The position numbers and the translations under genes were made by a program. The notes beneath the pieces were generated by a model. That model was not told where the DNA came from, ran no database searches, and saw only the letters and a program-made list of their open reading frames with translations. From Chamaelirium japonicum (taxonomy: Eukaryota; Streptophyta; Magnoliopsida; Liliales; Melanthiaceae): 64,000 nt of DNA. The stretch is from contig OX393551.1 in assembly GCA_947650365.1 (NCBI GenBank), positions 2,314,001 to 2,378,000 of the forward strand, given 5' to 3'. Shown piece by piece: positions 1-64,000 of this stretch (position 1 is its first letter; each line of letters opens with the position of its first letter).

Positions 1-1243
1 ATGAATTAGAATGGATCGTACGAATGGATTAGAATGGATCGTACGAATGAATTAGAATGGATCATACAAATGAATTAGAAAGGTTACATTTGTGAGAATA
101 AATTAGAATGGATCGTACGAATGAATTAGAATGGATCGTACGAATGGATTAGAATGGATCGTACAAAAGGATTAGAATGGATCGTACGAATGAATTAGAA
201 TGGATCATACAAATGAATTAGAAAGGTTAAATTCGTGAAAATGAATTAGAATGGATCGTACGAGTGAATTAGAATGGATCGTGCGAATGAATTAGAATGG
301 ATTGTACAAATGAATTAGAATGGATACATTCGTGCGAATGAATTAGAATGGATCGTGCGAATGAATTAGAATGAATTGTACGAATGCATTAGAATGGATA
401 CATTCGTGTGAATGAATTAGAATAGATCGTACGAATGAATACGAATGGATTGTACGAATAAATTAGAATGGATCGTACGAATGAATTAGAATGGATCGTA
501 CGAATGAATTATAATGGATCCACCGAATGAGTTAGAATGGATCATACGAATGAATTAGAATGGATCATACGAATGAATTAGAATGGATTGTGCGAACGAA
601 TTAGAATGGATCGTATAAATGAATAAGAATGGATCGTACGAATGAATTAGAATGGATCGTGCGAATGAATTAGAATTAATCGTACGAATGCATTTGAATG
701 GATCGTACGAATGAATTAGAATGAATCGTACAAACGAATTAGAATGGTTCGTACAAACGAATTAGAATGGATCGTATGAACGAATTAGAATGGATCGTAC
801 GAATGAATTAGAATGGATACATTCGAGCGAATGAATTAGAATGGATCGTACGAATGAATTAGAATGGATCATAGGAATGAATTAGAATGGATCGTGCAAA
901 TGAATTGGAATGGATACATTCGTGCGAATGAATTACAATGGATCATAGGAATAAATTAGAATGGATCGTACAAATAAATTAGAATGGATCGTGCGAATAA
1001 ATTAGAATGGATCGTACGAATGAATTAGAATGGATCAACCGAATGAGTTAGAATGGATCATACGAATGAATTAGAATGGATCATACGAATGAATTAGAAT
1101 GGATCGTACGAATGAATTAGAATGGATCGTATGAATGAATAAGAATGGATCGTCCGAATGAATTAGAAAGGATCGTGCGAATGAATTAGAATGAATCGTA
1201 CGAATGCATTAGAATAGATCATACGAATGAATTAGAATGAGTC
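1..1243 (+). repeat. Satellite block, purine-rich orientation
   Basis: Monomers run from the window edge to a flip at GAGTCGTACGATCC near 1241. The first ~380 bp are duplicated at 2195-2574, recognisable by the rare GAAAGGTTACATT units at 78 and 221. Two cassettes with ACCGAATGAGTTAG followed by GAATAAG lie near 520-630 and 1034-1145. Confidence 0.93.
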
Positions 1244-2188
1244 GTACGATCCATTCTAATTCATTCGTCCTATCCATTCTAATTCATTCGCACAAATGTA
1301 TCCATTCTAATTCATTCGTACAATCCATTCTAATTCATTCGCACGATCCATTCTAATTCATTCGTATGATCCATTCTAATTCATTCCTACGATCTATTCT
1401 AATTCATTCGCTCGAATGTATCCGTTCTAATTCATTCGTACAATCCATTCTAATTCATTCGCACGATCCATTCTAATTTATTCGTACGATCCATTCTAAT
1501 TCATTCGTACGATCCATTCTAATTCATTCGTATGATCCATTCTAATTCATTCGCACAAATGTATCCATTCTAATTCATTCGTATGATCCATTCTAATTCA
1601 TTCGCACGATCCATTCTAATTCATTCGTACGATCCATTCTGATTCATTCGTACGATCCATTCTAATTCATTCGTACGATCCATTCTAATTCATTCGCACA
1701 AATGTAGCCATTCTAATTCATTTGTACGATCCATTCTAATTCATTTGCACGATCCATTCTAATTCATTCGTACGATCCATTCTAATTCATTCGCAAGATC
1801 CATTCTAATTAATTCGTACGATCCATTCTAATTCATTCGTACGATCCATTCTTATTCATTCATACGATCCATTCTAATTCATTCGTACGATCCATTCTAA
1901 TTCATTCGTTTGATCCATTCTAACTCATTCGGTGGATCTATTCTAATTCATTCATACGATCCATTCTAATTCATTCGCACGATCCATTCTAATTTATTCA
2001 TACGATCCATTCTATTTCATTCGTACGATCTATTCTAATTCATTCGCACGAATGTAACCATTCTAATTCATTCGTACGATTCATTCTAATTCATTCGTAT
2101 GAGCTATTCTAATTCATTCGTACGATCCATTCTAATTCATTCGTACGATCCATTGTAATGCATTCATAAAATCTATTCTAATTCATTT
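1244..2188 (-). repeat. Satellite block, pyrimidine-rich orientation
   Basis: Begins on the shared core TCGTACGA and ends in TTTGTACGAATG. It contains an inverted relative (about 1853-1937) of the ACCGAATGAG cassette of the preceding block, seen here as CTCATTCGGTGG, with CTTATTCATTC about 75 bp upstream. 28-bp units read as CACAAATGTATCC. Confidence 0.93.
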
Positions 2189-2576
2189 GTACGAATGAAT
2201 TAGAATGGATCGTACGAATGGATTAGAATGGATCGTACGAATGAATTAGAATGGATCGTACAAATAAATTAGAAAGGTTACATTTGTGAGAATAAATTAG
2301 AATGGATCGTACGAATGGATTAGAATGGATCGTACGAATGGATTAGAATGGATCGTACGAAAGGATTAGAATGGATCGTACGAATGAATTAGAATGGATC
2401 ATACAAATGAATTAGAAAGGTTACATTCGTGAAAATGAATTAGAATGGATCGTACGAATGAATTAGAATGGATCGTGCGAATGAATTAGAATGGATTGTA
2501 CAAATTAATTAGAATGGATACATTCGTGCGAATGAATTAGAATGGATCGGACGAATGAATTAGAATGGATCGTACG
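2189..2576 (+). repeat. Satellite block; second copy of the window start
   Basis: Monomer order and private variants match 1-380 at a constant offset of 2,194 bp; the rare GAAAGG units fall at 2272 and 2415 against 78 and 221. The block ends in GGATCGTACGATTC, a flip on the shared TCGTACGA core. Confidence 0.92.
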
Positions 2577-3408
2577 ATTCATTCTAATTCATTCGTATGA
2601 TCCATTCTAATGCATTCGTACGATTCATTCTAATTCAATCCATTCTAATTCATTCGTACGATCCATTCTTATTCATTCATACGATCCATTCTAATTTATT
2701 TGCACAATCCATTCTAATTCATTCATACGATCCATTCAAATTCCTTCGTATGATCCATTCTAACTCATTCGGTGGATCCATTCTAATTCATTCATACGAT
2801 CCATTCTAATTCATTCGCACGATCCATTCTAATTTATTCGTACGATCCATTCTAATTCATTCGTACGATCCATTCTAATTCATTCGTACGATCTATTCTA
2901 ATTCATTCGCACGAATGTAACCATTCTAATTCATTCATACGATTCATTCTAATTCATTCGTATGAGCTATTCTAATTCATTCGTATGATCCATTCTAATT
3001 CATTCGTACGATCCATTGTAATTCATTCATACAATCCATTCAAATTCATTCGCACAAATGTATCCATTCAAGTTCATTTGTACGATCCATTCAAATAAAT
3101 TCGCACGATCTATTCTAATTCAGTCGTATGAATGTATCCATTTTAATTCATTCGTACGATCCATTCTAATTCATTTGTACGATCTAATTCATTCGTACGA
3201 TCCATTGTAAATCATTCCCACAAATGTAACCTTTCTAATTCATTTGTACGATCCATTCTAATTCATTCATACGATCCATTCTAATTCATTCGCACGAATG
3301 TAACCATTCTAATTCATTCATACGATCCATTCTAATTCATTCGCACAATCCATTCTAATTCATTCATACGATCCATTCTAATTTATTCGTATGATCCATT
3401 CTAACTCA
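2577..3408 (-). repeat. Satellite block, complementary orientation
   Basis: It includes a third ACCGAATGAG-type cassette in inverted form at about 2667-2777 (CTTATTCATTC, then CTCATTCGGTGG). The region 3030-3240 is more diverged than its surroundings, with AAATTCATT and AAGTTCATT units and an interrupted monomer near 3183. It ends abruptly at CTCATTTTAGAATGG. Confidence 0.92.
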
Positions 3409-4266: not shown

Positions 4267-4310
4267 GATCCAATCTAATTAGAATGGATTGTACGAACGA
4301 ACGAATCAGA

Positions 4311-4405
4311 CGATCCAATCTAATTCATTCGTACGATCCATTCTAATTCATTCGCACGAATGTATCAACTCTAATTCATTCGTACGATCTATTCTAATTC
4401 ATTCA
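4311..4405 (-). repeat. Complementary arm of 663-bp unit 1
   Basis: About four complementary monomers ending in ATTCATACATGTACG, which contains ACATGT and marks the flip to purine-rich monomers. The equivalent arms of units 2-6 follow at +663 bp steps. Unit 1 alone reads AATTCATTCGTACG at its start where the others read AATTCATTCATACG, as expected for an edge copy that escaped homogenisation. Confidence 0.9.
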
Positions 4406-4870
4406 TACATGTACGAATGAATTAGAATGGATACATTCGTGCGAATGAATTAGAATGGATCGTATGAATGAATTAGATTGGATCGTATGCATGAATTAGA
4501 ATGGATCGTGCGAATGAATTAGAATGGATCGTACGAATGAATTAGAATGGATCGAACGAATGAATTAGAATGGATACATTCGTGCAAAAGAATTAGAATG
4601 GATTGTATGAATGAATTAGAATGGATCGTGCGAATGAATTAGAATGGATCGTACGAATGAATTAGAATAGATACATTCGTGCGAAAGAATTAGAATAGAT
4701 CGTATGAATGAATTAGAATTGATCGTATGAATGAAATAGAATGGATCGTACGAATGAATTAGAATGGATCGTGTGAATGAATTAGAATGGATCGTATGAA
4801 TGAATTAGAATGGATCGTACGAAGGAATTAGAATGGATCATACGAATGAATTAGAAAGGATACATTCGAA
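4406..4870 (+). repeat. Purine-rich arm of 663-bp unit 1
   Basis: About 19 monomers with an ordered set of private variants: ATTAGATTGG, CGTATGCATG, GATCGAACG, GTGCAAAAG, GCGAAAGAATTAG, GAATGAAATAG and CGAAGGAATTAG. That order is the fingerprint used to find relics of the unit elsewhere. It ends at GGATACATTCGAATTC. Confidence 0.9.
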
Positions 4871-7800
4871 TTCATTCGTACGATCCATTCTAATTCCTTC
4901 GTACGATCCATATTCTAATTCATTCGCACGATCCAATCTAATTAGAATGGATTGTACGAACGAACGAATCAGACGATCCAATCTAATTCATTCATACGAT
5001 CCATTCTAATTCATTCGCACGAATGTATCAACTCTAATTCATTCGTACGATCTATTCTAATTCATTCATACATGTACGAATGAATTAGAATGGATACATT
5101 CGTGCGAATGAATTAGAATGGATCGTATGAATGAATTAGATTGGATCGTATGCATGAATTAGAATGGATCGTGCGAATGAATTAGAATGGATCGTACGAA
5201 TGAATTAGAATGGATCGAACGAATGAATTAGAATGGATACATTCGTGCAAAAGAATTAGAATGGATTGTATGAATGAATTAGAATGGATCGTGTGAATGA
5301 ATTAGAATGGATCGTACGAATGAATTAGAATGGATACATTCGTGCGAAAGAATTAGAATAGATCGTATGAATGAATTAGAATGGATCGTATGAATGAAAT
5401 AGAATGGATCGTACGAATGAATTAGAATGGATCGTGCGAATGAATTAGAATGGATCATACGAATGAATTAGAATGGATCGTACGAAGGAATTAGAATGGA
5501 TCGTACGAATGAATTAGAAAGGATACATTCGAATTCATTCGTACGATCCATTCTAATTCCTTCGTACGATCCATATTCTAATTCATTCGCACGATCCAAT
5601 CTAATTAGAATGGATTGTACGAACGAACGAATCAGACGATCCAATCTAATTCATTCATACGATCCATTCTAATTCATTCGCACGAATGTATCAACTCTAA
5701 TTCATTCGTACGATCTATTCTAATTCATTCATACATGTACGAATGAATTAGAATGGATACATTCGTGCGAATGAATTAGAATGGATCGTATGAATGAATT
5801 AGATTGGATCGTATGCATGAATTAGAATGGATCGTGCGAATGAATTAGAATGGATCGTACGAATGAATTAGAATGGATCGAACGAATGAATTAGAATGGA
5901 TACATTCGTGCAAAAGAATTAGAATGGATTGTATGAATGAATTAGAATGGATCGTGCGAATGAATTAGAATGGATCGTAAGAATGAATTAGAATGGATAC
6001 ATTCGTGCGAAAGAATTAGAATAGATCGTATGAATGAATTAGAATTGATCGTATGAATGAAATAGAATGGATCGTACGAATGAATTAGAATGGATCGTGT
6101 GAATGAATTAGAATGGATCGTATGAATGAATTAGAATGGATCGTACGAAGGAATTAGAATGGATCGTACGAATGAATTAGAAAGGATACATTCGAATTCA
6201 TTCGTACGATCCATTCTAATTCCTTCGTACGATCCATATTCTAATTCATTCGCACGATCCAATCTAATTAGAATGGATTGTACGAACGAACGAATCAGAC
6301 GATCCAATCTAATTCATTCATACGATCCATTCTAATTCATTCGCACGAATGTATCAACTCTAATTCATTCGTACGATCTATTCTAATTCATTCATACATG
6401 TACGAATGAATTAGAATGGATACATTCGTGCGAATGAATTAGAATGGATCGTATGAATGAATTAGATTGGATCGTATGCATGAATTAGAATGGATCGTGC
6501 GAATGAATTAGAATGGATCGTACGAATGAATTAGAATGGATCGAACGAATGAATTAGAATGGATACATTCGTGCAAAAGAATTAGAATGGATTGTATAAA
6601 TGAATTAGAATGGATCGTGTGAATGAATTAGAATGGATCGTACGAATGAATTAGAATGGATACATTCGTGCGAAAGAATTAGAATAGATCGTATGAATGA
6701 ATTAGAATGGATCGTATGAATGAAATAGAATGGATCGTACGAATGAATTAGAATGGATCGTGCGAATGAATTAGAATGGATCGTACGAATGAATTAGAAT
6801 GGATCGTACGAAGGAATTAGAATGGATCGTACGAATGAATTAGAAAGGATACATTCGAATTCATTCGTACGATCCATTCTAATTCCTTCGTACGATCCAT
6901 ATTCTAATTCATTCGCATGATCCAATCTAATTAGAATGGATTGTACGAACGAACGAATCAGACGATCCAATCTAATTCATTCATACGATCCATTCTAATT
7001 CATTCGCACGAATGTATCAACTCTAATTCATTCGTACGATCTATTCTAATTCATTCATACATGTACGAATGAATTAGAATGGATACATTCGTGCGAATGA
7101 ATTAGAATGGATCGTATGAATGAATTAGATTGGATCGTATGCATGAATTAGAATGGATCGTGCGAATGAATTAGAATGGATCGTACGAATGAATTAGAAT
7201 GGATCGAACGAATGAATTAGAATGGATACATTCGTGCAAAAGAATTAGAATGGATTGTATGAATGAATTAGAATGGATCGTGCGAATGAATTAGAATGGA
7301 TCGTACGAATGAATTAGAATGGATACATTCGTGCGAAAGAATTAGAATAGATCGTATGAATGAATTAGAATTGATCGTATGAATGAAATAGAATGGATCG
7401 TACGAATGAATTAGAATGGATCGTGTGAATGAATTAGAATGGATCGTATGAATGTATTAGAATGGATCGTACGAAGGAATTAGAATGGATCGTACGAATG
7501 AATTAGAAAGGATACATTCGAATTCATTCGTACGATCCATTCTAATTCCTTCGTACGATCCATATTCTAATTCATTCGCACGATCCAATCTAATTAGAAT
7601 GGATTGTACGAACGAACGAATCAGACGATCCAATCTAATTCATTCATACGATCCATTCTAATTCATTCGCACGAATGTATCAACTCTAATTCATTCGTAC
7701 GAACTATTCTAATTCATTCATACATGTACGAATGAATTAGAATGGATACATTCGTGCGAATGAATTAGAATGGATCGTATGAATGAATTAGATTGGATCG

Positions 7801-8185
7801 TATGCATGAATTAGAATGGATCGTGCGAATGAATTAGAATGGATCGTACGAATGAATTAGAATGGATCGAACGAATGAATTAGAATGGATACATTCGTGC
7901 AAAAGAATTAGAATGGATTGTATGAATGAATTAGAATGGATCGTGTGAATGAATTAGAATGGATCGTACGAATGAATTAGAATGGATACATTCGTGCGAA
8001 AGAATTAGAATAGATCGTATGAATGAATTAGAATGGATCGTATGAATGAAATAGAATGGATCGTACGAATGAATTAGAATGGATCGTGCGAATGAATTAG
8101 AATGGATCGTACGAATGAATTAGAATGGATCGTACGAAGGAATTAGAATGGATCGTACGAATGAATTAGAAAGGATACATTCGAA

Positions 8186-8927
8186 TTCATTCGTACGATC
8201 CATTCTAATTCCTTCGTACGATCCATATTCTAATTCATTCACACGATCCAATCTAATTCATTACTACGATCCATTCTAATTCATTCGTACGATCCATTCT
8301 AATTCATTCGCACGATCCATTCTAATTCATTCATACGATCCATTCTATTTCATTCGTACGATCCATTCTAATTCATTCGTACGATCCATTCTAATTCATT
8401 CGTACGATCCATTCTAATTCATTCGCACAATCTATACGTTCCATTCTAATTCATTCGTACGATCCATTCTAATTCATTCGCACGATCTAATCTAATTCAT
8501 TCGTACGATCCATTCTAATTCATTCGCACGAATGTATCTATTCTAATTATTCATACAATCTATTCTAATTTATTCGTACGATCCATTCTATTTCATTCGT
8601 ACAATCCATTCTATTTCATTCGTACGATCCATTCTTACTCATTCGTATGATCCATTCTAATTCATTCGCACGAATGTATCCATTCTAATTCATTCGTACG
8701 ATCAATTCTAATTCATTCGTATGATCCATTCTAATTTATTCGTCCGATCCATTCTAATTCATTCATACGATCCATTCTAATTCATTCATACAATCCATTC
8801 TAATTCATTCGTACAATCCATTCTAATTCATTCGCACAATCTATTCTAATTCATTCGTACGATCCATTCTAATTCATTCGCACGATCCATTCTAATTCAT
8901 TCATACGATCCATTCTATTTCATTCGT
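8186..8927 (-). repeat. Satellite block after the higher-order array
   Basis: Starts inside the last 663-bp unit at its GAATTC junction. Homology to the unit stops near 8258, where CATTACTACG replaces the expected tag. CATTACTACG is otherwise seen beside the GATCCAGATC junctions at 53.2 and 56.1 kb, so the array edge coincides with a known breakpoint. It ends in CATTCGTGCAAATG. Confidence 0.9.
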
Positions 8928-12542: not shown

Positions 12543-13752
12543 TTCGCACGAATGTATCCATTCTAATTCATTCGTACGATCCATTCTAATTCATTCATAC
12601 AATCCATTCTAATTCATTCGCACGAATGTATCCATTCTAATTCATTCGTACGATCCATTCTAATTCTTTCATATAATCCTTTCTAATTCCTTCGTATGAT
12701 CCATTCTAATTCATTCGTACGATTCATTCTAATTCAATCCATTCTAATTCATTCGTACGATCTATTCTTACTCATTCGTACGATCCATTCAAATTCATTC
12801 ATACGATCCAATCTAATTCATTCATACGATCCATTCAAATTCATTAATACGATCCAATCTAATTCATTCATACGATCCATTCTAATTCCTTCGTACGATC
12901 CATTCTAATTCATACGATCCATTCTAATTCATTCGTAAGATCCATTCTAATTCATTCATACGATTTATTCTAATTCATTCATACAATCCATTCTAATTCC
13001 TTCGTACGATCCATTCTAATTCATTCATACGATCCATTCTAATTCATTCATACGATCCATTCTAATTCATTCGTACGATCCATTTTATTTCATTCATACG
13101 ATCCATTCTAATTCATTAATACGATCCATTCTAATTCATTCGCACGATCCATTCTAATTCATTCGCACAAACTATTCTAATTCATTCATACAATCCATTC
13201 TAATTTATTCGCACGATCCATTCTAATTCATTCATACGATCCATTCTAATTCATTCATATGATCCATTCTAATTCATTCGCATGATCCATTCTTACTCAT
13301 TCGTACGATCCATTCTAATTCATTCGCACGATCCATTCTAATTCATTAATACGATCCATTCTAATTCATTCGCACGATCCATTCTAATTCATTCACACTC
13401 ATACGATCCATTCTAATTCATTCGCACGAATGTATCCTTTCTAATTCATTCGTACGATCCATTCTAATTCATTCGCACAATCTATTCTAATTCATTCGAA
13501 CGATCCATTCTAATTCATTCGTACGATCCATTCTAATTCATTCGCACGATCCATTCTAATTCATTCGCACGATCCATTCTAATTCATTAGCACGATCCAT
13601 TCTAATTCATTCGTACGATCCATTCTAATTCATTTATACGATCCAATCTAATTCATTCATATGATCCATTCTAATTCTTTCGCACGAATGTATCCATTCA
13701 AATTCATTCGTACGATCCATTCTAATTCATTAGCACGAAAAAACACGATCCA
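12543..13752 (-). repeat. Satellite block
   Basis: Complementary monomers with several TTCATTAATACG and TTCACACTCATACG variants. The CACACTCATACG run near 13390 recurs near 23280 and 39810, and as CACACGCATACG near 36530. It ends in the GAAAAAACACG junction. Confidence 0.92.
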
Positions 13753-13764
13753 CTCACATACGAA
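13733..13764 (-). repeat. GAAAAAACACG junction cassette, copy 1
   Basis: GCACGAAAAAACACGATCC followed by ACTCACATACG is the least monomer-like sequence in the window and the only short A-run. It marks the change from complementary to purine-rich monomers. Matching copies are at 36892, 40150 and 43118, with inverted copies at 19001 and 32851. Confidence 0.93.
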
Positions 13765-16671: not shown

Positions 16672-17667
16672 CGAATGAATTAGAATGGATACATTCGTGC
16701 GAAAGAATTAGAATGGGTCGTATGAATGAATTAGATTGGATCTTACGAATGAATTAGAATGGATCGTACGAATGAATTAGAATGGATCGTATGAATGAAC
16801 TAGAATGGATCGTGCGAATGAATTAGAATGGATCGTGCGAATGAATTAGAATGGATCGTACGAATGAATTAGAATGGATCGTGCGAATGAATTAGAATAG
16901 ATCATATGAATGAATTAGAATGGATCGTATGAATGAATTAGAATGGATCGTGCGAATAAATTAGAATGGATCGTATGAATGAATTAGAATAGATTGTGCG
17001 AATGAATTAGAATGGATCGTACGAAGGAATTAGAATGGATCGTACGAAGGAATTAGAATGGATAGTACGAATGAATTAGAATGGATACCTTCGTGCAAAT
17101 GAATTAGAATGGATCGTACGAATGAATTAGAATGGATTGTACGAATGAATTAGAATGGATCGTTTGAATGAATTAGAATGGATTGTACTTATGAATTAGA
17201 ATGGGTCATACGAATGAAATAGAATGGATCGTACGAAGGAATTAGAAAGGATCGTATAAACGAATTAGAATGGATCGTATGAATGAAATAGAATAGATCG
17301 TACGAATGAATTAGAATGGATCGTATGAATGAATTAGTTTGGATCGTATGAATGAATTAGAATGGATTGTACGAATGAAATAGAATAGATCGTACGAATG
17401 AAATAGAATGGATCGTACGAATGAATTAGAATAGATTGTGCGAATAGATTAGAATGGATCATACGATTGAGTAAGAATGGATTGTACGAATGAAATAGAA
17501 TAGATCGTACGAATGAATTAGAATGGATCGTATGAATGAATTAGAATGGATCATGCGAATGATATAGAATGGATCGTATGAATGAATTAGAATGGATCGT
17601 AGTAATGAATTAGAATGGATCCTACGAATGAATTAGAATAGATTGTGCGAATGAATTAGAATGGATC
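16672..17667 (+). repeat. Satellite block with GTACTTATG marker
   Basis: About 17160-17480 contains GTACTTATGAATTAG followed by ATGGGTCATACG, found again in the same orientation at about 44170-44490 and 52850-53060. It ends with GGATCTGGATCGTGTATCC. Confidence 0.92.
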
Positions 17668-17680
17668 TGGATCGTGTATC
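17661..17680 (+). repeat. GATCTGGATC junction, copy 1
   Basis: The purine-rich to complementary switch is marked by GGATCTGGATCGTG (ATCTGG at 17665), which no ordinary monomer contains. Same-orientation copies are near 38410 and at 44698; inverted copies, read as CGATCCAGATCC, are at 53148 and 56028. Confidence 0.93.
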
Positions 17681-18381
17681 CATTCTAATTCATTCGTACG
17701 ACCCATTCTAATTCATTCGCATGATCCATTCTAATTCATTCGTACGATCTATTCTATTTCATTCGTACAATCCATTCTAATTCATTCATACGATCCAATC
17801 TAATTCATTCATACGATCCATTCTAATTCATTCGTACGATCTATTCTATTTCATTCATACGATCCATTCTAATTCGTTTGTACGATCCTTTCTAATTCCT
17901 TCGTACGATCCATTCTATTTCATTCGTATGACCCATTCTAATTCATAAGTACGATCCATTCTAATTCATTCAAACGATCCATTCTAATTCATTCAAACGA
18001 TCCATTCTAATTCATTCGTACGATCCATTCTAATTCATTCGCACGATCCATTCTAATTCATTCATACGATCCAATCTAATTCATTCATACGATCCATTCT
18101 AATTCATTCGCACGAATGTATCCATTCTAATTCATTCGCACGATCCATTCTAATTCATTCATACAATCCATTCTAATTCTTTTGTACGAATGTATCCATT
18201 CTAATTCATTCGTACGATCCATTCTAATTCATTCTAATTATCTATTCCAATTCATTCGCATGATCCATTATAATTCATTCATACGATCCAATCTAATTCA
18301 TTCGTACGATCCATTCTAATTCATTCGCACGAATGTATCAACTCTAATTCATTCGTACGATCCATTCTAATTCATTCATAC
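17668..18381 (-). repeat. Satellite block, CATAAGTACG family
   Basis: Contains CATAAGTACG at 17944, preceded by CGTTTGTACGATCCTTTC. With the next block it forms a module repeated at 44.7-45.8 kb with a 27,033-bp offset that drops to 27,010 bp after the loss of one monomer. It ends at CATACATGTACG (18377). Confidence 0.92.
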
Positions 18382-18843
18382 ATGTACGAATGAATTAGAA
18401 TGGATACATTCGTGCGAATGAATTAGAATGGATCGTATGAATGAATTAGATTGGATCGTATGCATGAATTAGAATGGATCGTGCGAATCAATTATAATGG
18501 ATCGTACGAATGAATTAGAATGGATTGAATGACTGAATTAAAATGGATACATTCGTGCAAAAGAATTAGAATGGATTGTATGAATGAATTAGAATGGATC
18601 GTGCGAATGAATTAGAATGGATCGTACGAATGAATTTGAATGGATACATTCGTGCGAAAGAATTAGAATAGATCGTATGAATGAATTAGAATGGATCGTA
18701 TGAATGAAATAGAATGGATCAGACGAATGAATTAGAATGGATCGTGTGAATGAATTAGAATGGATCGTACGAATGAATTAGAATGGATCGTACGAAGGAA
18801 TTAGAATGGATCGTACGAATGAATTAGAAAGGATACATTCGAA
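18382..18843 (+). repeat. Relic of the 663-bp unit, copy a
   Basis: Carries the unit's ordered fingerprint (ATTAGATTGG, CGTATGCATG, GTGCAAAAG, GCGAAAGAATTAG, GAATGAAATAG, CGAAGGAATTAG) between CATACATGTACG and GAATTC at 18841. It is more diverged than any unit in the 4.3-8.3 kb array, with GCGAATCAATTATAATGG and GATTGAATGACTG as private changes. Confidence 0.93.
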
Positions 18844-19012
18844 TTCATTCGTACGATCCATTCTAATTCCTTCGTACGATCCATATTCTAATTCATTCGC
18901 ACGATCCATTCTAATTCATTCGCACGATCCATTCTAATTCATTCATACGATCCATTCTAATTCATTCACACAATCCATTCTAATTCATTCTAATTTATTC
19001 GTATGTGAGTGG
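18844..19012 (-). repeat. Short satellite block
   Basis: About seven complementary monomers between the GAATTC junction and the inverted GAAAAAACACG cassette. Its counterpart is 32694-32862. Confidence 0.91.
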
Positions 19013-24731: not shown

Positions 24732-25838
24732 GAAGGAATTAGAATGGATAGTACGAATGAATTAGAATGGATACATTCGTGCAAAAGAATTAGAATGGAT
24801 TTAATGAATGAATTAGAATGGAACGTACGAATGAATTAGAATGGATCGTACGAATGAATTAGAATGGATACATTCGTGCAAATGAATTAGAATGGATACA
24901 TTCATGGGAATGAATTAGAATGGATCGTATGAATGAATTAGAATGGATCGTATGAATGAATTAGAATGGATCGTACGAATGAATTAGAATGGATACATTC
25001 GTGCGAATGAATTAGAATGGATCGTACGAATGAGTAAGAATGGATCGTACGAATGAAATAGAATGGATCGTACGGATGAATTAGAATGGATCGTGCGAAT
25101 GAATTAGAATGGATCGTATAAATGAGTAAGAATGGATCGTATGAATGAATTAGAATGGATCATACGAAGGAATTAGAATAGATCATACGAAGAAATTTGA
25201 ATGGATCGTACGAATGAATTAGAATGGATCGTATGAATGAATTAGAATGGATCGTGCGAATGAATTAAAATGGATCGTATGAATGAAATAGAATGGATCG
25301 TATGAATTAGAATGGATCGTACGAATGAAATAGAATGGATCGTACGAATGAATTAGAATGGATCATGCTAATGAATTAGAATTGATCGTACGAATGAATT
25401 AGAATAGATTGTGCGAATGAATTAAAATGGATCGTATAAATGAATTAGAATGGATCGTATGAATGAATTAGAATGGATCGTGCGAATGAATTAAAATGGA
25501 TCGTATGAATGAAATAGAATGGATCGTACGAATGAATTAGAATAGATTGTGCGAATGGATTAGAATGGATCATACGATTGAGTAAGAAAGGATTATACGA
25601 ATGAAATAGAATAGATCGCACGAATGAATTAGAATGGATCGTATGAATGAATTAGAATGGATCGTTCGAATGAATTAGAATAGATTGTGCGAACGAATTA
25701 GAATGGATCGTACGAATGAATTAGAATGGATCGTGAGAATAAATTAGAATGGATCGTATGAATGAATTAGAATGGATCGTGCGAATGAATTAGAATATGG
25801 ATCGTACGAAGGAATTAGAATGGATCGTACGGATGAAT
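24732..25838 (+). repeat. Satellite block
   Basis: The stretch 25150-25620 resembles 34780-35060 and 42230-42500 (CGTATGAATTAG deletion unit, GGATTAG unit, CATACGATTGAGTAAG). It ends with GAATATGG and GAATTC (25835). Confidence 0.92.
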
Positions 25839-26172
25839 TCGAATGTATCCTTTCTAATTCATTCGTACGATCCATTCTAATTCTTTCGTACGATCCATTC
25901 TAATTCATTCGCACGATCCATTCTAATTCATTCGCACGATCCATTCTAATTCATTCATACGATCCATTCTAATTCATTTGCAAGAATGTATCCATTCTAA
26001 CTCATTCGTACGATCCATTCTAATTCATTCGTATGATCTATTCTAATTCATTCGCATGATCCATTATAATTCATTCATACGATCCAATCTAATTTATTCG
26101 TACGATCCATTCTAATTCATTCGCACGAATGTATCAACTCTAATTCATTCGTACGATCCATTCTAATTCATT
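25839..26172 (-). repeat. Satellite block
   Basis: Short complementary block leading to CATACATGTACG near 26171, the entrance of a 663-bp unit relic. Confidence 0.91.
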
Positions 26173-37066: not shown

Positions 37067-37253
37067 GCATTCACTCAAACGATCCATTCTAATTCATTCA
37101 TATGATCCATTCTAATTCATTCGCACGAATGTATCCATTCTAATTCATTCGTACGATCCATTCTAATTCGTTTGTACGAATGTATCCACTCTAATTCATT
37201 CATACGATCCATTCTAATTCATTTGTACGAATGTATCTACTCAAATTCATTCG
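37067..37253 (-). repeat. Short satellite block
   Basis: Starts within CGCATTCACTCAAACG and ends with ATTCATTCGTACGAATG, a seamless flip on the shared core. Confidence 0.92.
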
Positions 37254-38411
37254 TACGAATGAATTAGAATGGATCGTATGAGTGTGAATGAATTAGAATG
37301 GATCGTGCGAATGAATTAGAATGGATCGTATTAATGAATTAGAATGGATCGTATGAATGAAATAGAATAGATCGTACGAATGAATTAGAATGGATCATAT
37401 GAATGAATTAGAATGGATCGTACGAAGGAATTAGAATAGATTGAATGAATGAATTAGAATAGATCGTATGAATGAATTAGAATGGATCTTACGAATGAAT
37501 TAGAATGGATCGTATGAATTAGAATGGATCGTACGAAGGAATTAGAATGGATCGTATGAATGAATTAGATTGGATCGTATTAATGAATTTGAATGGATCG
37601 TATGAATGAATTAGATTGGATCGTATGAATGAATTAGAATGGATCTTGCGAATAAATTAGAATGGATTGAATTAGAATGAATCGTACGAATGAATAAGAA
37701 TGGATACATTCGTGCGAATGATTTAGAATGGATCGTACGAATGAATTAGAATAGATTGTGCGAATGAATTAGAATGGATCGTATGAATTAGAATTGATCG
37801 TACGAATGAATTAGAATGGATCATACGAAGGATTTAGAATGGATCGTACGAATGAATTAGAATGGATACATTCGTGCGAATGAATTAGAATGGATCATAC
37901 GAAGGAATTAGAATGGATCGTACGTATGAATTAGAATGGATCGTACGAATGAATTAGAATGGATACATTCGTGCGAATGAATTAGAATGGATCATACGAA
38001 GGAATTAGAATGGATCGTACGAATGAATTAGAATGGATCGTACGAATGAATTAGAATGGATCGTACGAATGAATTAGAATGGTTACATTCGTGCGAATGA
38101 ATTAGAATGGATCATACGAATGAATTAGAGTTGATACATTCGTGTGAATGAATTAAAATGGATAATACGAATGAGTAAGAATGGATCGTAGAATTAGAAT
38201 GGATCGTATGAATGAATTAGAATGGATACATACGAATGAATTAGAATGGATCGTATGAATGAATTAGAATGGATCGTGCGAATGAATTAGAATGGATCGT
38301 ACGAATGAATTAGAATAGATCGTATGAATGAATTAGAATGGATCGTAGTAATGAATTAGAATGGATCCTACGAATGAATTAGAATAGATTGTGCGAATGA
38401 ATTAGAATGGA
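37254..38411 (+). repeat. Satellite block
   Basis: The first ~400 bp match the start of 54627-56026 (CGTATGAGTGTGAATG, a CGTATGAATTAG deletion unit, GAATTTGAATGG). The unusual CGTAGAATTAG and GGATACATACG units near 38190-38230 recur near 59320-59350. It ends with GGATCTGGATCGTG. Confidence 0.92.
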
Positions 38412-38420
38412 TCTGGATCG
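38400..38420 (+). repeat. GATCTGGATC junction, copy 2
   Basis: Same switch as at 17661, also preceded by a CGTAGTAATG monomer and a GGATCCTACG monomer within ~80 bp. Confidence 0.92.
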
Positions 38421-40168
38421 TGTATCCATTCTAATTCATTCGTACGACCCATTCTAATTCATTCGCACAATCCATTCTAATTCATTCGTACGATATATTC
38501 TATTTCATTCGTACAATCCATTCTAATTCATTCATATGATCCAATCTAATTCATTCATACGATCCATTCTAATTCATTCGTACGATCTATTCTATTTCAT
38601 TCATACGATCCATTCTAATTCGTTTGTACGATCCTTTCTAATTACTTCGTACGATCCATTCTATTTCATTCGTATGACCCATTCTAATCATAAGTACGAT
38701 CCATTCTAATTCATTCAAACGATCCATTCTAATTCATTCGTACGATCCATTCTAATTCATTCGCACGATCCATTCTAATTCATTCATACGATCCAATCTA
38801 ATTCATTCATACGATCCATTCTAATTCATTCGCACGAATGTATCCATTCTAATTCATTCGCACGATCCATTCTAATTCATTCATACGATCCATTCTATTT
38901 CATTCGTACGATCCATTCTTACTCATTCGTACGATCCATTCTAATTCATTTGCACGAAGGTATCCATTCTAATTCATTCGTACTATCCATTCTAATTCCT
39001 TCGTACGATCCATTCTAATTCCTTCGTACGATCCATTCTAATTCATTCATACGATCCCTTCTAATTCATTCGTACCATCCATTCTAATTCCTTCGTATGA
39101 TCCATTCTAATTCATTCGTAGGATATGATTCATTCTAATTCATTCGTACGATTCATTCTAATTCAATCCATTCTAATTCATTCGTACAATCCATTCTAAT
39201 TCATTCGTACGATCCATTCTAATTCATTTGTACGATTCATTCTAATTCAATCCATTATAATTCATTCGTACGATCCATTCTTACTCATTCGTACGATCCA
39301 TTCTAATTCATTCGCACGAATGAATCCATTCTAATTCATTCGTATGATCCATTCTAATTCATTCGCTTGAATGTATCCATTCTAATTCATTCGTACGATC
39401 CATTCTATCTCATTCGAACAATCCATTCTATTTCATTCGTACGATCCATTCTAATTCATTCGCACGATCCATTCTAATTCATTCGCATGATCCATTCTAA
39501 TTCATTTGTACGATCGATTCTAATTCATTCATACGATCCATTCTAATTCATTCGCACGAATGTATCCATTCTAATTCATTCGTACGATCCATTCTAATTC
39601 ATTCGCACAATCTATTCTAATTCATTCATACGATCCATTCTAATTTATTCGCACGATCCATTCTAATTCATTCATACGATCCATTCTAATTCATTCATAT
39701 GATCCATTCTAATTCATTCGCACGATCCATTCTTACTCATTCGTACGATCCATTCTAATTCATTCGTACGATCCATTCTAATTCATTAATACGATCCATT
39801 CTAATTCATTCACACTCATACGATCCATTCTAATTCATTCGCACAAATGTATCCTTTCTAATTCATTCGTACGATCCATTCTAATTCATTCGCACAATCT
39901 ATTCTAATTCATTCGAACGATCCATTCTAATTCATTCGTACGATCCATTCTAATTCATTCACACGATCCATTCTAATTCATTCGCACGATCCATTCTAAT
40001 TCATTAGCACGATCCATTCTAATTCATTCGTACGATCCATTCTAATTCATTTATACGATCCAATCTAATTCATTCATACGATCCATTCAAATTCTTTCGC
40101 ATGAATGTATCCATTCTAATTCATTCATACGATCCATTCAAATTCATTAGCACGAAAAAACACGATCC
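38412..40168 (-). repeat. Satellite block
   Basis: Two modules joined: the CATAAGTACG module (CATAAG at 38689, with one T lost before it), then the copy of 35.6-36.9 kb described under that block. The crossover lies near 38880. Confidence 0.92.
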
Positions 40169-40178
40169 ACTCACATAC
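40150..40178 (-). repeat. GAAAAAACACG junction cassette, copy 3
   Basis: Same core and flanks as copy 2; start of an ~870-bp segment repeated exactly 2,968 bp downstream. Confidence 0.93.
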
Positions 40179-40336
40179 GAATAAATTAGAATGAATTAGA
40201 ATGGATTGTGTGAATGAATTAGAATGGATCGTATGAATGAATTAGAATGGATCATGCGAATGAATTAGAATGGATCGTGCGAATGAATTAGAATATGGAT
40301 CGTACGAATGAATTAGAATGGATCGTACGAATGAAT
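40169..40336 (+). repeat. Short satellite block
   Basis: Contains GAATATGG and ends at GAATTC (40333). The penultimate monomer is CGAATGAATTAG where the other copies have CGAAGGAATTAG. Confidence 0.92.
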
Positions 40337-40796
40337 TCGAATGTATCCTTTCTAATTCATTCGTACGATCCATTCTAATTCCTTCGTACGATCCATTCTA
40401 ATTCCTTCGTACGATCCATTCTAATTCATTCGTACGATCCATTCTAATTCATTCGTACGATCCATTCTATTTCATTCATACGATCCATTCTAATTCATTC
40501 ATACGATCTATTCTAATTCTTTCGCACGAATGTATCCATTGTAATTAATTCGTACGATCCATTCTAATTCATTCGCACGATCCATTCTAATTCATTCATA
40601 CAATCCATTCTAATTCTTTTGTACGAATGTATCCATTCTAATTCATTCGTTCGATCCATTCTAATTCATTCGTACGATCCATTCTAATTCATTCGCACGA
40701 TCCATTCTAATTCATGCATACGATCCAATCTAATTCATTCATACGATCCATTCTAATTCATTCGCACGAATGTATCCATTCTAATTCATTCGTACA
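40337..40796 (-). repeat. Satellite block
   Basis: Carries the CATGCATACGATCC variant near 40713, shared with 43681, 58045 and 63763. It ends at CGTACATTTATGAATG (40791), where its duplicates read CGTACATGTATG. Confidence 0.92.
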
Positions 40797-42868
40797 TTTA
40801 TGAATGAATTAGAATGGATCGTACAAATGAATTAGAGTTGATACATTCGTGCGAATGAATTAGAATGGATCGTACGAATGAATTAGATTGGATCGTATGA
40901 ATGAATTATAATGGATCATGCGAATGAATTAGAATAGATCATACGAATGAATTAGAATGGATCGTACGAATGAATTAGAATGGATACATTCGTGCAAAAG
41001 AATTAGAATGGATTGTACGAATGAATTAGATTGGGTCGTATAAATGAATTAGAATGGATCGTACGAATGAATTAGAATCGATCGTGGTAATGAATTCGAA
41101 TAGATCGTGCAAATGAATTAGAATGGATTGTACGAATGAATTAGAATGGATCGTACGAATGAAATAGAATAGATCGTACGAATGAATTAGAATGGATACA
41201 TTCGTGCAAAAGAAATAGAATGGATTGTATGAATGAATTAGAATGGATCATGTGAATGAATTAGAATGGATCATACGAATGAATTAGAATGGATACATTC
41301 GTGCGAATGAATTAGAATGGATCGTGCGAATGAATTAGAATGGATCGTACGAATGAACTAGAATGGATCGTATGAATGAATTAGAATGGATCGTGCGAAT
41401 GAATTAGAATGGATCGTGCGAATGAATTAGAATGGATCGTACGAATGAATTAGAATGGATCGTATGAATGAATTAGATTGGATCGTATTAATGAATTAGA
41501 ATGGATCGTACAAATGAATTAGAATAGATCGTACGAATGAATTAGAATGGATACGAATGGATCGTACGAATGAGTAAGAATGGATCGTACGAATGAAATA
41601 GAATGGATTATACGAATGAATTAGAATGGATACATTCGTGCGAATGAATTACGATGGATCGTATGAATGAATTAGAATAGATTGTGCGAATGAATTAGAA
41701 TGGATCGTACGAATGAATTAGAATGGATACATTCATGCGAATGAATTAGAATGGATCGTATGAATTAATTAGAATGGATCATATGAGTGAATTAGAATGG
41801 ATACGAAGGAATTAGAATGGATCGTACGAAGGAATTAGAATGGAGAATGGATCGTGTGAATGAATTAGAATGGATCGTGCGATAAGAATGGATCGTACGA
41901 ATGAAATAGAATAGATCGTACGGATAAATGAATTTGGATCGTGCTAATGAATTAGAATGGATCGTACGAATGAATTAGAATGGATCGTACTAATGAATTA
42001 GAATAGATTGTGCGAATGAATTAGAATGGATCGTACGAATGAATTAGAAAGGATATATTCGTGCGAATGAATTAGAATAGATCGTATGAATGAATTAGAT
42101 TGGATCGTATTAATGAATTAGAATGGATCGTGCGAATGAATTAGAATGGATCGTACGAATGAATTAGAATGGATAGATTCGTGCGAATGAATTTGAATGG
42201 ATAGTACGAAGGAATTAGAATGGATCGTACGAAGGAATTAGAATAGATCATACGAAGAAATTAGAATGGATCGTACGAATGAATTTGAATGGATCGTATG
42301 AATGAATTTGAATGGATCGTGCTAATGAATTAAAATAGATCGCATGAATGAAATAGAATGGATCGTATGAATTAGAATGGATCGTACGAATGAAATAGAA
42401 TGGATCGTACGAATGAATTAGAATAGATTGTGCGAATGGATTAGAATGGATCATACGATTGAGTCAGAATGGATTGTACGAATGAAATAGAATAGATCGT
42501 ACGAATGAATTAGAATGGATCATGCTAATGAATTAGAATTGATCGTACGAATGAATTAGAATAGATTGTGCGAATGAATTAGAATGGATCGTACGAATGA
42601 ATTGGAATGGATACATTCGTGCGAATGAATTAGAATGGATCGTATGAATGAATTAGAGTGGATGCATTCGTACAAATGAATTAGAATGGATCAAACGAAT
42701 GAATTAGAATGGATACATTCGTGCGAATAAATTAGAATGGATCATATGAATGAATTAGAATGGATCGTTTGAGTGAATGCGAATGGATCGTGCGAATGAA
42801 TTAGAATGGATTGTATGAATGAATTAGAATGGATCGTACGAATGAATTAGAATGGATACATTCGTGCG
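40797..42868 (+). repeat. Long purine-rich satellite block
   Basis: The first ~200 bp are shared with 43765. 41160-41560 resembles the 14.8/33.7 kb copies, and 41790-42868 is the 7,447-bp-offset copy of 34340-35421. Inverted cassette J is at 41780-41944 and GTTTGAGTGAATGCG near 42766. Confidence 0.92.
41780..41944 (+). repeat. Cassette J, inverted copy 6
   Basis: 165 bp, like copy 5. Order GGATACGAAGG, GGAGAATGG, GCGATAAGAATGG, CGGATAAATG, AATTTGGATCGTGC. Confidence 0.93.
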
Positions 42869-43136
42869 AATCCATTCTATTTCATTCGTACGATCCATTC
42901 AAATTCATTCGCACGATCCATTCTAATTCATTCATACGATCCATTCTAATTCATTCGTACGATCCATTCTAATTCATTCATACGATCCATTCTTATTCAT
43001 TCGCACAATCTATTCTAATTCATTTGTACGATCCATTCTAATTCATTCATACGATCCATTCTAATTCATTCATATGATCCATTCTAATTCATTTGTACGA
43101 TCCATTCTAATTCATTAGCACGAAAAAACACGATCC
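42869..43136 (-). repeat. Satellite block
   Basis: Short join between a GCGAATCC junction and the GAAAAAACACG cassette. It is much shorter than the equivalents at 11.5-13.7 and 35.4-36.9 kb, so most of that module is deleted here. Confidence 0.92.
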
Positions 43137-43147
43137 ACTCACATACG
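43118..43147 (-). repeat. GAAAAAACACG junction cassette, copy 4
   Basis: Start of the second member of the 2,968-bp-offset pair. Just after it, TTAGAAATAATTAG replaces TTAGAATGAATTAG. Confidence 0.93.
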
Positions 43148-43313
43148 AATAAATTAGAAATAATTAGAATGGATTGTGTGAATGAATTAGAATGGATCGT
43201 ATGAATGAATTAGAATGGATCGTGCGAATGAATTAGAATGGATCGTGCGAATGAATTAGAATATGGATCGTACGAAGGAACTAGAATGGATCGTACGAAT
43301 GAATTCCTATGTA
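43137..43313 (+). repeat. Short satellite block
   Basis: Contains GAATATGG and ends at 43311 with GAATTCCTATGTATC, a mutated form of the GAATTCGAATGTATCC junction. Confidence 0.91.
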
Positions 43314-43764
43314 TCTTTTCTATTTCATTCATACGATCCATTCTAATTCCTTCGTACGATCCATTCTAATTCATTCGTACGCTCCATTCTAATTCATTCG
43401 CACGATCCATTCTAATTCATTCGTACGATCCATTCTATTTCATTCATACGATCCATTCTAATTCATTCATACGATCTATTCTAATTCTTTCGCACGAATG
43501 TATCCATTCTAATTCATTCGTACGATCCATTCTAATTCATTCGCACGATCCATTCTAATTCATTCATACAATCCATTCTAATTCTTTTGCACGAATGTAT
43601 CAATTCTAATTCATTCGTTCGATCCATTCTAATTCAATCGTACGATCCATTCTAATTCATTCGCACGATCCATTCTAATTCATGCATACGATCCAATCTA
43701 ATTCATTCATACGATCCATTCTAATTCATTCGCACGAATGTATCCATTCTAATTCATTCGTACA
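43314..43764 (-). repeat. Satellite block
   Basis: Copy of 40337-40796; ends at CGTACATGTATG (43759), exactly 2,968 bp after the matching position. Confidence 0.93.
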
Positions 43765-44700
43765 TGTATGAATGAATTAGAATAGATTGTACGAATGAAT
43801 TAGAGTTGATACATTCGTGCGAATGAATTAGAATGGATCGTACGAATGAATTAGATTGGATCGTATGAATGAATTATAATGGATCATGCGAATGAATTAG
43901 AATAGATCATACGAATGAATTAGAATGGATCGTACGAATGAATTAGAATGGATACATTCGTGCAAAAGAATTAGAATGGATTGTATGAATGAATTAGAAT
44001 GGATCGTGCGAATGAATTAGAATGGATACATTCGTGCGAATGAATTAGAATGGATCGTATGAATGAATTAGATTGGATCGTATGAATGAATTAGAATGGA
44101 TCATACGAATGAATTAGAATGGATCGTATGAATGAATTAGAATGGATTGTACGAATGAATTAGAATGGATCGTTTGAATGAATTAGAATGGATCGTACTT
44201 ATGAATTAGAATGGGTCATACGAATGAAATAGAATGGATCGTACGAAGGAATTAGAAAGGATCGTACAAACGAATTAGAATGGATCGTATGAATGAAATA
44301 GAATAGATCGTACGAATGAATTAGAATGGATCGTATGAATGAATTAGATTGGATCGTATGAATGAATTAGAATGGATTGTACGAATGAAATAGAATAGAT
44401 CGTACGAATGAAATAGAATGGATCGTACGAATGAATTAGAATAGATTGTGCGAATGGATTAGAATGGATCATACGATTGAGTAAGAATGGATTGTACGAA
44501 TGAAATAGAATAGATCGTACGAATGAATTAGAATGGATCGTATGAATAAATTAGAATGGATCGTGCGAATGAATTAGAATGGATCGTACGAATGAATTAG
44601 AATGGATCGTACGAATGAATTAGAATGGATCGTAGTAATGAATTAGAATGGATCCTACGAATGAATTAGATTAGATTGTGCGAATGAATTAGAATGGATC
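43765..44700 (+). repeat. Satellite block
   Basis: Begins as a copy of 40797-41020, then from about 44150 follows 17150-17667 (GTACTTATGAATTAG near 44204). It ends at GATCTGGATC. Confidence 0.92.
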
Positions 44701-44712: not shown

Positions 44713-45391
44713 CCATTCTAATTCATTCGTACGACCCATTCTAATTCATTCGCACGATCCATTCTAATTCATTCGTACGATCTATTCTATTTCATTCGTA
44801 CAATCCACTCTAATTCATTCATACGATTCAATCTAATTCATTCATACGATCCATTCTAATTCATTCGTACGATCTATTCTATTTCATTCATACGATCCAT
44901 TCTAATTCGTTTGTACGATCCTTTCTAATTCCTTCGTACGATCCATTCTATTTTATTCGTATGACCCATTCTAATTCATAAGTACGATCCATTCTAATTC
45001 ATTCAAACGATCCATTCTAATTCATTTGTACGATCCATTCTAATTCATTCGGACGATCCATTCTAATTCATTCATACGATCCAATCTAATTCATTCATAC
45101 GATCCATTCTAATTCATTCGCACGAATGTATCCATTCTAATTCATTCGCACGATCCTTTCTAATTCATTCATACAATCCATTCTAATTCTTTTGCACGAA
45201 TGTATCCATTCTAATTCATTCGTACGATCCATTCTAATTCATTCGTATGATCTATTCTAATTCATTCACATGATCCATTATAATTCATTCATACGATTCA
45301 ATCTAATTCATTCGTACGATCCATTCTAATTCATTGGCACGAATGTATCAACTCTAATTCGTTCGTACGATCCATTCTAATTCATTCATAC
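44701..45391 (-). repeat. Satellite block, CATAAGTACG family
   Basis: CATAAG at 44977. One monomer shorter than 17668-18381, between CATAAG and CATACATGTACG (45387). Confidence 0.92.
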
Positions 45392-45850
45392 ATGTACGAA
45401 TGAATTAGAATGGATACATTCGTGCGAATGAATTAGAATGGATCGTATGAATGAATTAGATTGGATCGTATGCATGAATTAGAATGGATCGTGCGAATGA
45501 ATTAGAATGGATCGTACGAATGAATTAGAATGGATCGAACGAATGAATTAGAATGGATACATTCGTGCAAAAGAATTAGAATGGATTGTATGAATGAATT
45601 AGAATGGATCGTGCGAATGAATTAGAATGGATCGTACGAATGAATTAGAATGGATACATTCGTGCGAAAGAATTAGAATAGATCGTATGAATGAATTAGA
45701 ATGGATCGTATGAATGAAATAGAATGGATCGTACGAATGAATTAGAATGGATCGTGCGAATGAATTAGAATGGATCGTACGAATGAATTAGAATGGATCG
45801 TACGAAGGAATTAGAATGGATCGTACGAATGAATTAGAAAGGATACATTC
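45392..45850 (+). repeat. Relic of the 663-bp unit, copy d
   Basis: The closest relic to the array units: all fingerprint variants are present, including GATCGAACG and CGAAGGAATTAG. Its end differs: GGATACATTCTAATTC in place of GGATACATTCGAATTC, so the EcoRI-like core is lost. Confidence 0.93.
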
Positions 45851-46098
45851 TAATTCATTCGCACAATCTATTCTAATTCATTCGTACGATCCATTCTAAT
45901 TCATTCGCACGATCCATTCTAATTCATTCGTACGATCCATTTTTATTCATTCACAAGAATGTATACATTCTAATTCATTCAAACAATCTATTCTAATTCA
46001 TTCGTACGATCCATTCTAATTCATTCGTACAATCCATTCTATTTCATTCGTACGATCCATTCTTACTCATTCGTATGATCCATTCTATTTCATTCGCA
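45851..46098 (-). repeat. Short satellite block
   Basis: Includes CACAAGAATGTATACATTC near 45955. It flips at ATTCGCACGAATGAATTAG. Confidence 0.9.
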
Positions 46099-46230
46099 CG
46101 AATGAATTAGAATGGATCGTACGAATGAATTAGAATGGATCATATGAATGAATTAGAATAGATCGTGCGAATGAATTAGAATTAGAATTCATTCGTACGA
46201 TCCATTCTAATTCATTAATACGATCCATTC
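46099..46230. repeat. Two very short alternating satellite blocks
   Basis: About 90 bp purine-rich (46099-46189), then about 40 bp complementary (46190-46230) joined at TTAGAATTCATTCG. These are the shortest blocks outside the higher-order array, two to four monomers each. Confidence 0.88.
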
Positions 46231-62720: not shown

Positions 62721-62779
62721 CTCGTACGAATGAATTAGAATGGATCGTACGAATGAATTAGAATGGATACATTCGTGCG
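62721..62779 (+). repeat. Very short satellite block
   Basis: Two and a half monomers between CTCGTACGAATG and GCGAATCCATTC. Confidence 0.9.
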
Positions 62780-63846
62780 AATCCATTCTTTTTCATTCGT
62801 ACGATCTATTCTAATTCATTCGCACGATCCATTCTAATTCATTCATACGATCCATTCTAATTCATTCGTACGATCCATTCTAATTCATTCATACGATCCA
62901 TTCTATTTCATTCGTATGATCCATTCTATTTCATTCATATAATCCATTCTAATTCTTTCGCACGATCCATTCTAAGTCATTCATACGATCCATTCTAATT
63001 CATTCGTATGATCCATTCTAATTCATTCGTTCGATCCATTCTAATTTATTCGCACGATCCATTCTAATTCATTCATACGATCCATTCTTACTCATTCGTA
63101 CGATCCATTCTAATTCATTCGCACGATCCATTCTAATTCATCCGTACGATCCATTCTATTTCATTCGTACGATCCATTCTTACTCATTCGTACGATCCAT
63201 TCTAATTCATTCGCACGATCCATTCTAATTCATCCGTACGATCCATTCTATTTCATTCATACGATCCATTCTTACTCATTCGTACGATCCATTCTAATTC
63301 ATTCGCACGAATGTATCCATTCTAATTCATTCGTACGATCCATTCTAATTCCTTCGTACAAACCATTCTAATTCCTGCGTACGATCCATTCTAATTCCTT
63401 TGTACGACCCATTATATTTCATTCGTATGATCCATTCTAATTCCTTTGTACAATCCAGTCTAATTCATTCCCATGAATGTATCCATTCTAATTCATTTGC
63501 ACGAATGTATCCATTCTAATTCATTCATACGATCCATTCTAATTCATTCATACGATCTATTCTAATTCTTTCGCACAAATGTATCCATTCTAATTCATTC
63601 GTACGATCCATTCTAATTCATTCGCACGATCCATTCTAATTCATTCATACAATCCATTCTAATTCTTTTACACGAATGTATCCATTCTAATTCATTCGTT
63701 CGATCCATTCTAATTCATTCGTACGATCCATTCTAATTCATTCGCACGATCCATTCTAATTCATGCATACGATCCAATCTAATTCATTCATACGATCCAT
63801 TCTAATTCATTCGCACGAATGTATCCATTCTAATTCATTCGTACAT
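62780..63846 (-). repeat. Satellite block
   Basis: Tandem repeat of about 113 bp near 63070-63290 (CATCCGTACG, then CTATTTCATTC, then CTTACTCATTCG). CATGCATACG lies near 63763 and the end is CGTACATGTATG, as at 43.8 and 58.1 kb. Confidence 0.92.
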
Positions 63847-64000
63847 GTATGAATGAATTAGAATGGATCGTACGAATGAATTAGATTGGATCGTGCGAAT
63901 GAATTAGAATGGATCGTACGAATGAATTAGAATGGATCGAAAACGAATGAATTAGAATGGATCGTATGAATGAATTAGAATGGATCGTACGAATGAATTA
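63847..64000 (+). repeat. Satellite block running off the window
   Basis: Ordinary monomers after CGTACATGTATG, with one irregular GGATCGAAAACGAATG unit near 63940. The array continues beyond the window. Confidence 0.92.

Follow-up and report, generated by a model that had tools for sequence, protein, structure and literature searches.

Most orientation flips in a 23-bp satellite array of Chamaelirium japonicum are probably copies of some thirty junction families

Introduction

Common models of satellite growth, such as unequal exchange and break-induced replication (BIR), picture head-to-tail copying of monomers. The array considered here occupies the whole of a 64,000-bp stretch of DNA from Chamaelirium japonicum (the window; contig OX393551.1, positions C3:2314001-2378000 of the 1.52-Gb assembly GCA_947650365.1). 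It consists of a 23-bp monomer, GAATGAATTAGAATGGATCGTAC, with a 28-bp variant, GAATGAATTAGAATGGATACATTCGTGC, and changes its orientation 100 times. Did so many flips arise one by one, did they arise by repeated inversion in place, or were a few of them copied? We consider it probable that the majority of flips are copies belonging to about 30 junction families, spread by orientation-blind copying of segments of 0.1 to 20 kb. The families have common flanks, occur in both orientations and are shared between chromosomes, and an unbalanced inverted duplication is found on two of the related contigs.

Orientation blocks and flips

Orientation was labelled by a cyclic hidden Markov model (HMM) holding + and - copies of the 23-bp monomer. 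Under this two-strand model 32,172 bp of the window fall to +, 31,670 bp fall to - and only 158 bp to neither strand; the monomer thus fills 63,842 of the 64,000 bp, and satellite takes up the window over its full length. The junction list derived from the model contains 50 head-to-head (H) and 50 tail-to-tail (T) flips, so that the head-to-tail order of satellite DNA with higher-order repeats is not found here. A multi-monomer unit in high-identity tandem does exist in the form of six 663-bp units, which reach 98.9-99.5% in their longest alignments and extend over 4 kb only. Twenty-three flips fall inside these units (4310-8177) and 77 outside them, close to the initial annotation of this DNA, which had counted about 79 alternating blocks plus about four flips in each higher-order unit, or about 100 flips in all. 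An independent fuzzy-word count gave 107 runs, part of them single matches. Merged blocks (n = 101) have a mean length of 632 bp and a median of 453 bp, corresponding to one flip per ~640 bp, and unmerged blocks range from 34 to 2,538 bp. The sign of the GC skew, proposed in the same annotation as a check, agrees with the orientation in 102 of 102 unmerged blocks. The hairpin potential that it had pointed out is also real by prediction, with a mean single-strand DNA folding energy, for 300-bp pieces, of -110.9 kcal/mol at 79 junctions vs -24.1 kcal/mol in 64 block interiors.

Between the lengths of neighbouring blocks there is no correlation when the tandem unit is left out (rho -0.06, 76 pairs), while rho reaches 0.20 (p 0.047) with the unit included. 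Rfam gave no match in the window nor in five non-satellite samples of the genome, and the satellite words had no match in the literature text searched and no exact match in viral contigs or genome contigs. Window positions 9500-10500 had no exact match among plasmids or phages.

Junction families

The flips were compared through the 160 bp around each of them, in both orientations and with single linkage, after the 20 junctions of the later 663-bp tandem units had been left out, which reduces 100 junctions to 80. At 92% identity these 80 junctions form 31 families, and ten multicopy families take in 59 of them; when window pieces are joined + to - at random, a real junction is matched in only 18 of 400 cases. 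The distinction is sharper at 94%, where 52 of 80 junctions are in multicopy families vs 3 of 400 controls. About 100 independent flip events are rejected on this ground, as the junctions fall into so few families.

Similarity extends beyond the junctions themselves. Over the first 100 bp outside the junction words, median flank identity is 0.89 to 0.98 for families H1, H2, H4, T1a and T3, vs a baseline of 0.85 (296 random in-phase pairs), and this excess fades over 400 to 1,000 bp. Among the nine families compared for flanks, T5 and T12, both small, share a single flank only. The word search gave no pair of H3 or T2 outside the tandem unit; in it the near-palindromic T1a sites at 58.1 and 63.8 kb were counted in both orientations, which yields two self-pairs. 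The shared junctions and flanks therefore identify the families as copies by descent, reshuffled later at the scale of hundreds of bases. At 80 of the 100 junctions, moreover, at least one flank continues unflipped elsewhere (at least 250 bp at 91% identity or more), as expected for segments copied into new neighbourhoods.

The copies lie in mixed orientation. Both orientations are present in eight of the ten multicopy families defined at 92%, and 104 of 210 junction pairs with at least 92% identity are inverted. This fraction is about one half in every distance class: 10 of 23 pairs under 5 kb, then 15 of 29, 28 of 58 and 40 of 79, and 11 of 21 over 40 kb.

Flips shared between chromosomes

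Using the window junctions as reference and at least 94% identity over 160 bp, matching flips were found in large numbers on other contigs: 49 of 52 on C7 (40 kb), 25 of 28 on C11 (20 kb), 38 of 41 on C12 (30 kb), 13 of 15 on both C4 and C2, and 14 of 16 on C62. Part of the misses arise because the reference set does not include the tandem T2 junction. In eight other samples from the window's own contig, C3, 25 of 79 flips match a window junction at this level. Copies of the 663-bp unit, counted by their H3 junction, number six here, one on C2 and two on each of C4, C7, C11, C12 and C62, and ~16 flips of the window are therefore likely due to plain tandem growth. The proposal of the initial annotation that the flips had been spread by duplication is well supported by the recurrent families, their common flanks, the six tandem unit copies vs one or two at six related loci, and the occurrence of the same flips on other chromosomes.

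The one large rearrangement concerns C7 and C11. C7 8,701-12,300 corresponds to window 26,323-29,927 in forward orientation (96.8%), and C7 12,375-29,545 to window 44,670-27,551 inverted (97.2% over 17,228 alignment columns), an interval that contains 18 window flips; the inverted match then continues as window 28,126-24,935 (96.7%). Taken together, the forward and inverted alignments place window 26.3-29.9 kb on C7 in both orientations, and the two C7 copies match each other, inverted, at 95.1% over 2.4 kb. The change on C7 is an unbalanced inverted duplication, the start of which is common to C11: the 20 kb of C11 that were compared are colinear with C7 at 97.4%, across the junction as well, and the inverted match of this contig to the window runs from 45,225 to 37,076. 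On C12 the window order is kept piecewise up to 23.2 kb, and forward orientation returns at 30.1-31.8 kb. At the switch point lies a 106-bp patch matching a third place, window 43,259-43,364 (98.1%), whose C11 copy has a perfect inverted copy ~1.4 kb downstream. The C7 structure, together with this patch, is what serial template switching would leave.

Founder junctions

If most flips are copies, how did the first member of each family arise? We determined the overlap at each junction, defined as the stretch fitting both the + and the - readings, and compared it with 3,000 random joins of each type. Overlaps of at least 6 bp occur in 12 of 31 families vs 2.6 expected (none of 20,000 resamplings reaches 12), and in 8 of 25 families vs 2.1 expected (p 0.001) when families are defined at 90%. 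The words shared by both strands at junctions are TCGTACGA and CATTCGTGCGAATG, the latter being part of the 28-bp variant. Inserts of at least 2 bp are present in six of 31 families, no more than in random joins. The founder flips are few and diverse, and old in comparison with their copies; a likely origin of only a part of them is annealing at strand-symmetric words.

Proposed origin and spread of the flips

These observations suggest a scheme in which some founder flips would arise at sites where both strands of the monomer have the same reading, TCGTACGA or, in the 28-bp variant, CATTCGTGCGAATG, when a DNA end anneals to the opposite strand at such a strand-symmetric word. BIR with template switching between out-of-register and inverted repeats could then copy segments of 0.1 to 20 kb to new sites, within and between chromosomes. 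For a resected end or a restarted fork, an inverted template would be no harder to find than a direct one, and the copies would end up in either orientation, because both orientations are found within ~2.5 kb of any point. Once both are present, copying would multiply existing flips and make no new ones. The template switching invoked in the initial annotation fits part of the founders, those with the excess of overlaps, as well as the unbalanced inverted duplication on C7 and C11; beyond this fit it is, like BIR itself and the role of palindromic words, what we infer.

Several points weigh against the copying scheme. The number of families depends on the threshold, being 13 at 88% and 37 at 94%, and the control is weak at 90%, where 111 of 400 random joins match. 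The overlap excess shrinks when families are lumped (4 of 13 vs 1.1 expected at the 88% level, p 0.019), and the inserts in six families, together with the small overlap in many, mean that a single founder mechanism does not fit all of them. Flip-spanning 120-bp pieces of the window average 4.9 matches vs 41.5 for other pieces, with inverted shares of 0.48 and 0.51, respectively; this copy-number test gives no support for flips having been copied more than the rest, and it is confounded because plain monomers match everywhere. The flips are known from the assembled sequence. Finally, duplication followed by inversion could also produce the structure seen on C7.

This last point is shared by the best of the alternatives, according to which the flips come mainly from frequent inversion in place, by crossing-over between inverted module copies, duplication adding copies afterwards. 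Inverted modules of 0.7-1.8 kb at 92-97% identity are indeed found throughout the window, and orientation is fully mixed. However, no balanced inversion (X-Y-Z vs X-inverted Y-Z) was detected within the window in comparisons of homologous segments that were 180 bp or longer and at least 91% identical, by a test of partial power that recovers 37 of 58 synthetic inversions, and the single large difference between chromosomes is unbalanced. We therefore reject balanced inversion within the window as the main source of flips, with the reservation that this power imposes; the frequent inversion put forward in the initial annotation finds no support there, 31 families being enough to cover 80 junctions, and inversion in place as the general origin seems unlikely.

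A second alternative is that selection keeps the flips, their hairpins or cruciforms organising chromatin. Predicted folding is far stronger at the flips, the authors of the Tribolium madens study make the same proposal in the available part of their paper (PMC13081366), and the idea is akin to the dyad symmetry considered for centromeres in the part available of another (PMC8997354). However, any flip yields strong folding, copying alone explains the families, and nothing here puts the array at a centromere. Symmetry of arm lengths as a sign of selection was rejected, since adjacent block lengths are unmatched outside the tandem unit. We regard selection as a rather improbable explanation.

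At 85 flips, the adjoining arms of 75 to 100 bp have a mean identity of 87.9% vs 85.6% for in-phase random pairs. Eight of the 85 reach 95% (2.2% of controls do so), five of these eight being tandem copies of one junction, and fresh palindromes with arms at 97% or above number 0 of 85 (controls 1.0%). Assembly or sequencing artefacts, which such repeats can produce, are hardly credible as the origin of the flips, since fold-back reads would give near-perfect arms, which are absent, and misassembly as the main cause was set aside as unlikely because the same flips stand at other loci on six other contigs at ~97% identity, that is, with ~3% divergence.

Relation to known satellite systems

The closest parallel to the copied flips comes from beetles. 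Tribolium madens, T. freemani and T. castaneum have macro-dyad satellites that switch orientation at conserved inversion sites, as checked in raw reads, and the authors, in the portions of their paper at hand, state that such symmetries are documented only in Tribolium (PMC13081366). The likeness lies in orientation changes within the array and in a few types of conserved inversion site, each present many times; the available portions also list as features a minor satellite in cassettes bounded by inversion sites and a proposal of hairpins (PMC13081366). Unlike the present array, the Tribolium satellites described there have monomers of ~110-704 bp; their subarrays measure several kb, usually number two per array and tend towards symmetry, and two satellites intermingle (PMC13081366). 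Here the monomer is 23 bp, blocks average 0.63 kb, 31 junction families occur in 64 kb and there is no length symmetry. Orientation changes and conserved inversion sites are thus found (59 of 80 junctions in ten multicopy families, also on other chromosomes), whereas near-symmetric paired subarrays of several kb are not (the median block is 453 bp long, and beyond the tandem unit neighbouring lengths show no correlation). With two features of the kind present and one missing, we place the array beside the Tribolium systems as a variant and not as a member.

Formation of higher-order repeats by BIR offers a second comparison. In the available text of PMC8997354, re-initiation out of register copies multi-monomer units and switching to templates on other chromosomes is discussed, much as proposed here; unlike those head-to-tail arrays, half of the matching junction pairs in the window are inverted. 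Changes of satellite orientation also occur in primate alpha satellite (PMC11062924) and in human HSat2,3 (PMC4022460), as far as the accessible parts of both papers tell. In the latter, 1,738 reads with matches to both strands were separated out as candidates for inversion breakpoints, and in alpha satellite, unlike here, the inversions are large, e.g., 3.2 Mb (PMC11062924). A literature search, with most subscription papers outside its reach, found no satellite with a flip density like one per 0.64 kb, which is weak evidence of novelty.

The array provides a second, unrelated case, this one in a plant, of conserved inversion sites, which the authors of PMC13081366, in the portions at hand, knew only from Tribolium. 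Its ~30 junction families are markers of copying events within and between chromosomes; they allow copying in the inverted sense to be counted and template switching to be separated from inversion, and the array opens the question whether DNA prone to hairpins serves a use or is only tolerated. More tentatively, this may be a satellite without polarity: amplification would be blind to orientation, junctions would be passed on, multiplied and moved between chromosomes as whole units, and the array would show strand symmetry already below 5 kb. If true, the macro-dyad would be a state open to any satellite whose monomer has a strand-symmetric word, given a few founder flips, rather than a trait confined to a single beetle genus.

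Mapped features and genomic setting

Table 1. Positions of the satellite, its repeated modules, named flips and the segments rearranged on C7 (window coordinates)
Feature	Position	Strand	Basis
Satellite, 23-bp monomer GAATGAATTAGAATGGATCGTAC and 28-bp variant GAATGAATTAGAATGGATACATTCGTGC, 100 orientation flips	1..64000	.	HMM segmentation and junction list
Six tandem 663-bp units, four flips each (H3, T1a, H1, T2)	4268..8258	+	Self-BLAST 98.9-99.5%, block table
708-bp module, flips T1a and H1 flanking 453-bp + block	7625..8332	+	Five further window copies, 94.9-97.0%
Module copy, direct	18283..18990	+	96.9%
Module copy, direct	32134..32840	+	96.5%
Module copy, inverted	40189..40896	-	97.0%
Module copy, inverted	43162..43864	-	97.0%
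Module copy, direct	45293..46099	+	94.9%
T3 flip insert AAAAACACGATCCACTCA	13739..13756	+	Six HMM-unassigned places
H4 flip	17660..17695	+	Five copies, 3 forward and 2 reverse
H2 flip at 35411	35400..35425	+	13-member family at 92%, 9 forward and 4 reverse
Segment inverted on C7, two overlapping alignments	24935..44670	+	44,670-27,551 at 97.2% (17,228 columns); 28,126-24,935 at 96.7%
Segment also forward on C7, directly ahead of inverted copy	26323..29927	+	96.8%

The T3 insert recurs in + orientation at 36898, 40156 and 43124 and in - orientation at 19006 and 32856 (four forward and two reverse in the family), and the H4 flip at 38423 and 44710 (+) and at 53143 and 56023 (-).

Arrays of the Tribolium type have a putative location at or around centromeres; the window lies 2.3 Mb from the end of C3, and related arrays are found near chromosome ends and also at interior places. 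Elsewhere in the genome such arrays contain 246 flips in 170 kb, and the window is therefore not exceptional in its own genome. Window 1-600 has at least seven other copies at 99% among 40 candidates that were scored out of 3,794, on C2, C4 (two), C7, C11, C12 and C62. The polarity of these copies relative to the nearest contig end is constant on six of six chromosome-sized contigs (C2, C3, C4, C7, C11 and C12), + near the low end and - near the high end, despite the mixed finer orientation. The C11 copy is only 28 kb from the contig start vs 2.3-2.9 Mb elsewhere. Interior arrays with flips, at 88-89% identity to window 1-600, were seen at C6:56.84, C9:38.79, C4:48.04 and C1:2.49 Mb; samples of them (20 kb) hold 18 flips, of which five match a window junction at 92% or more.

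Along C3, the satellite is present in samples at 1.5, 2.0, 2.28, 2.304-2.314, 2.378-2.388, 2.40, 2.45 and 2.6 Mb and absent from those at 0-10 kb and 0.2, 0.8, 2.2, 3.0 and 5.0 Mb. The sample C3:2200000-2205000, non-satellite and of 52% GC, is flanked within the satellite domain by samples of pure satellite, taken at 2.0 and 2.28 Mb. Four copies of a GATCGG-rich, 119-bp tandem repeat (96% matches) near the telomere occupy positions 1-481 of C3:200000-205000. C3:1-10000 consists purely of CCTAAAC repeats (1,428.6 copies, 100% matches), which we take to be an Arabidopsis-type telomere, likely that of a plant, read on the C strand, and which is intact.

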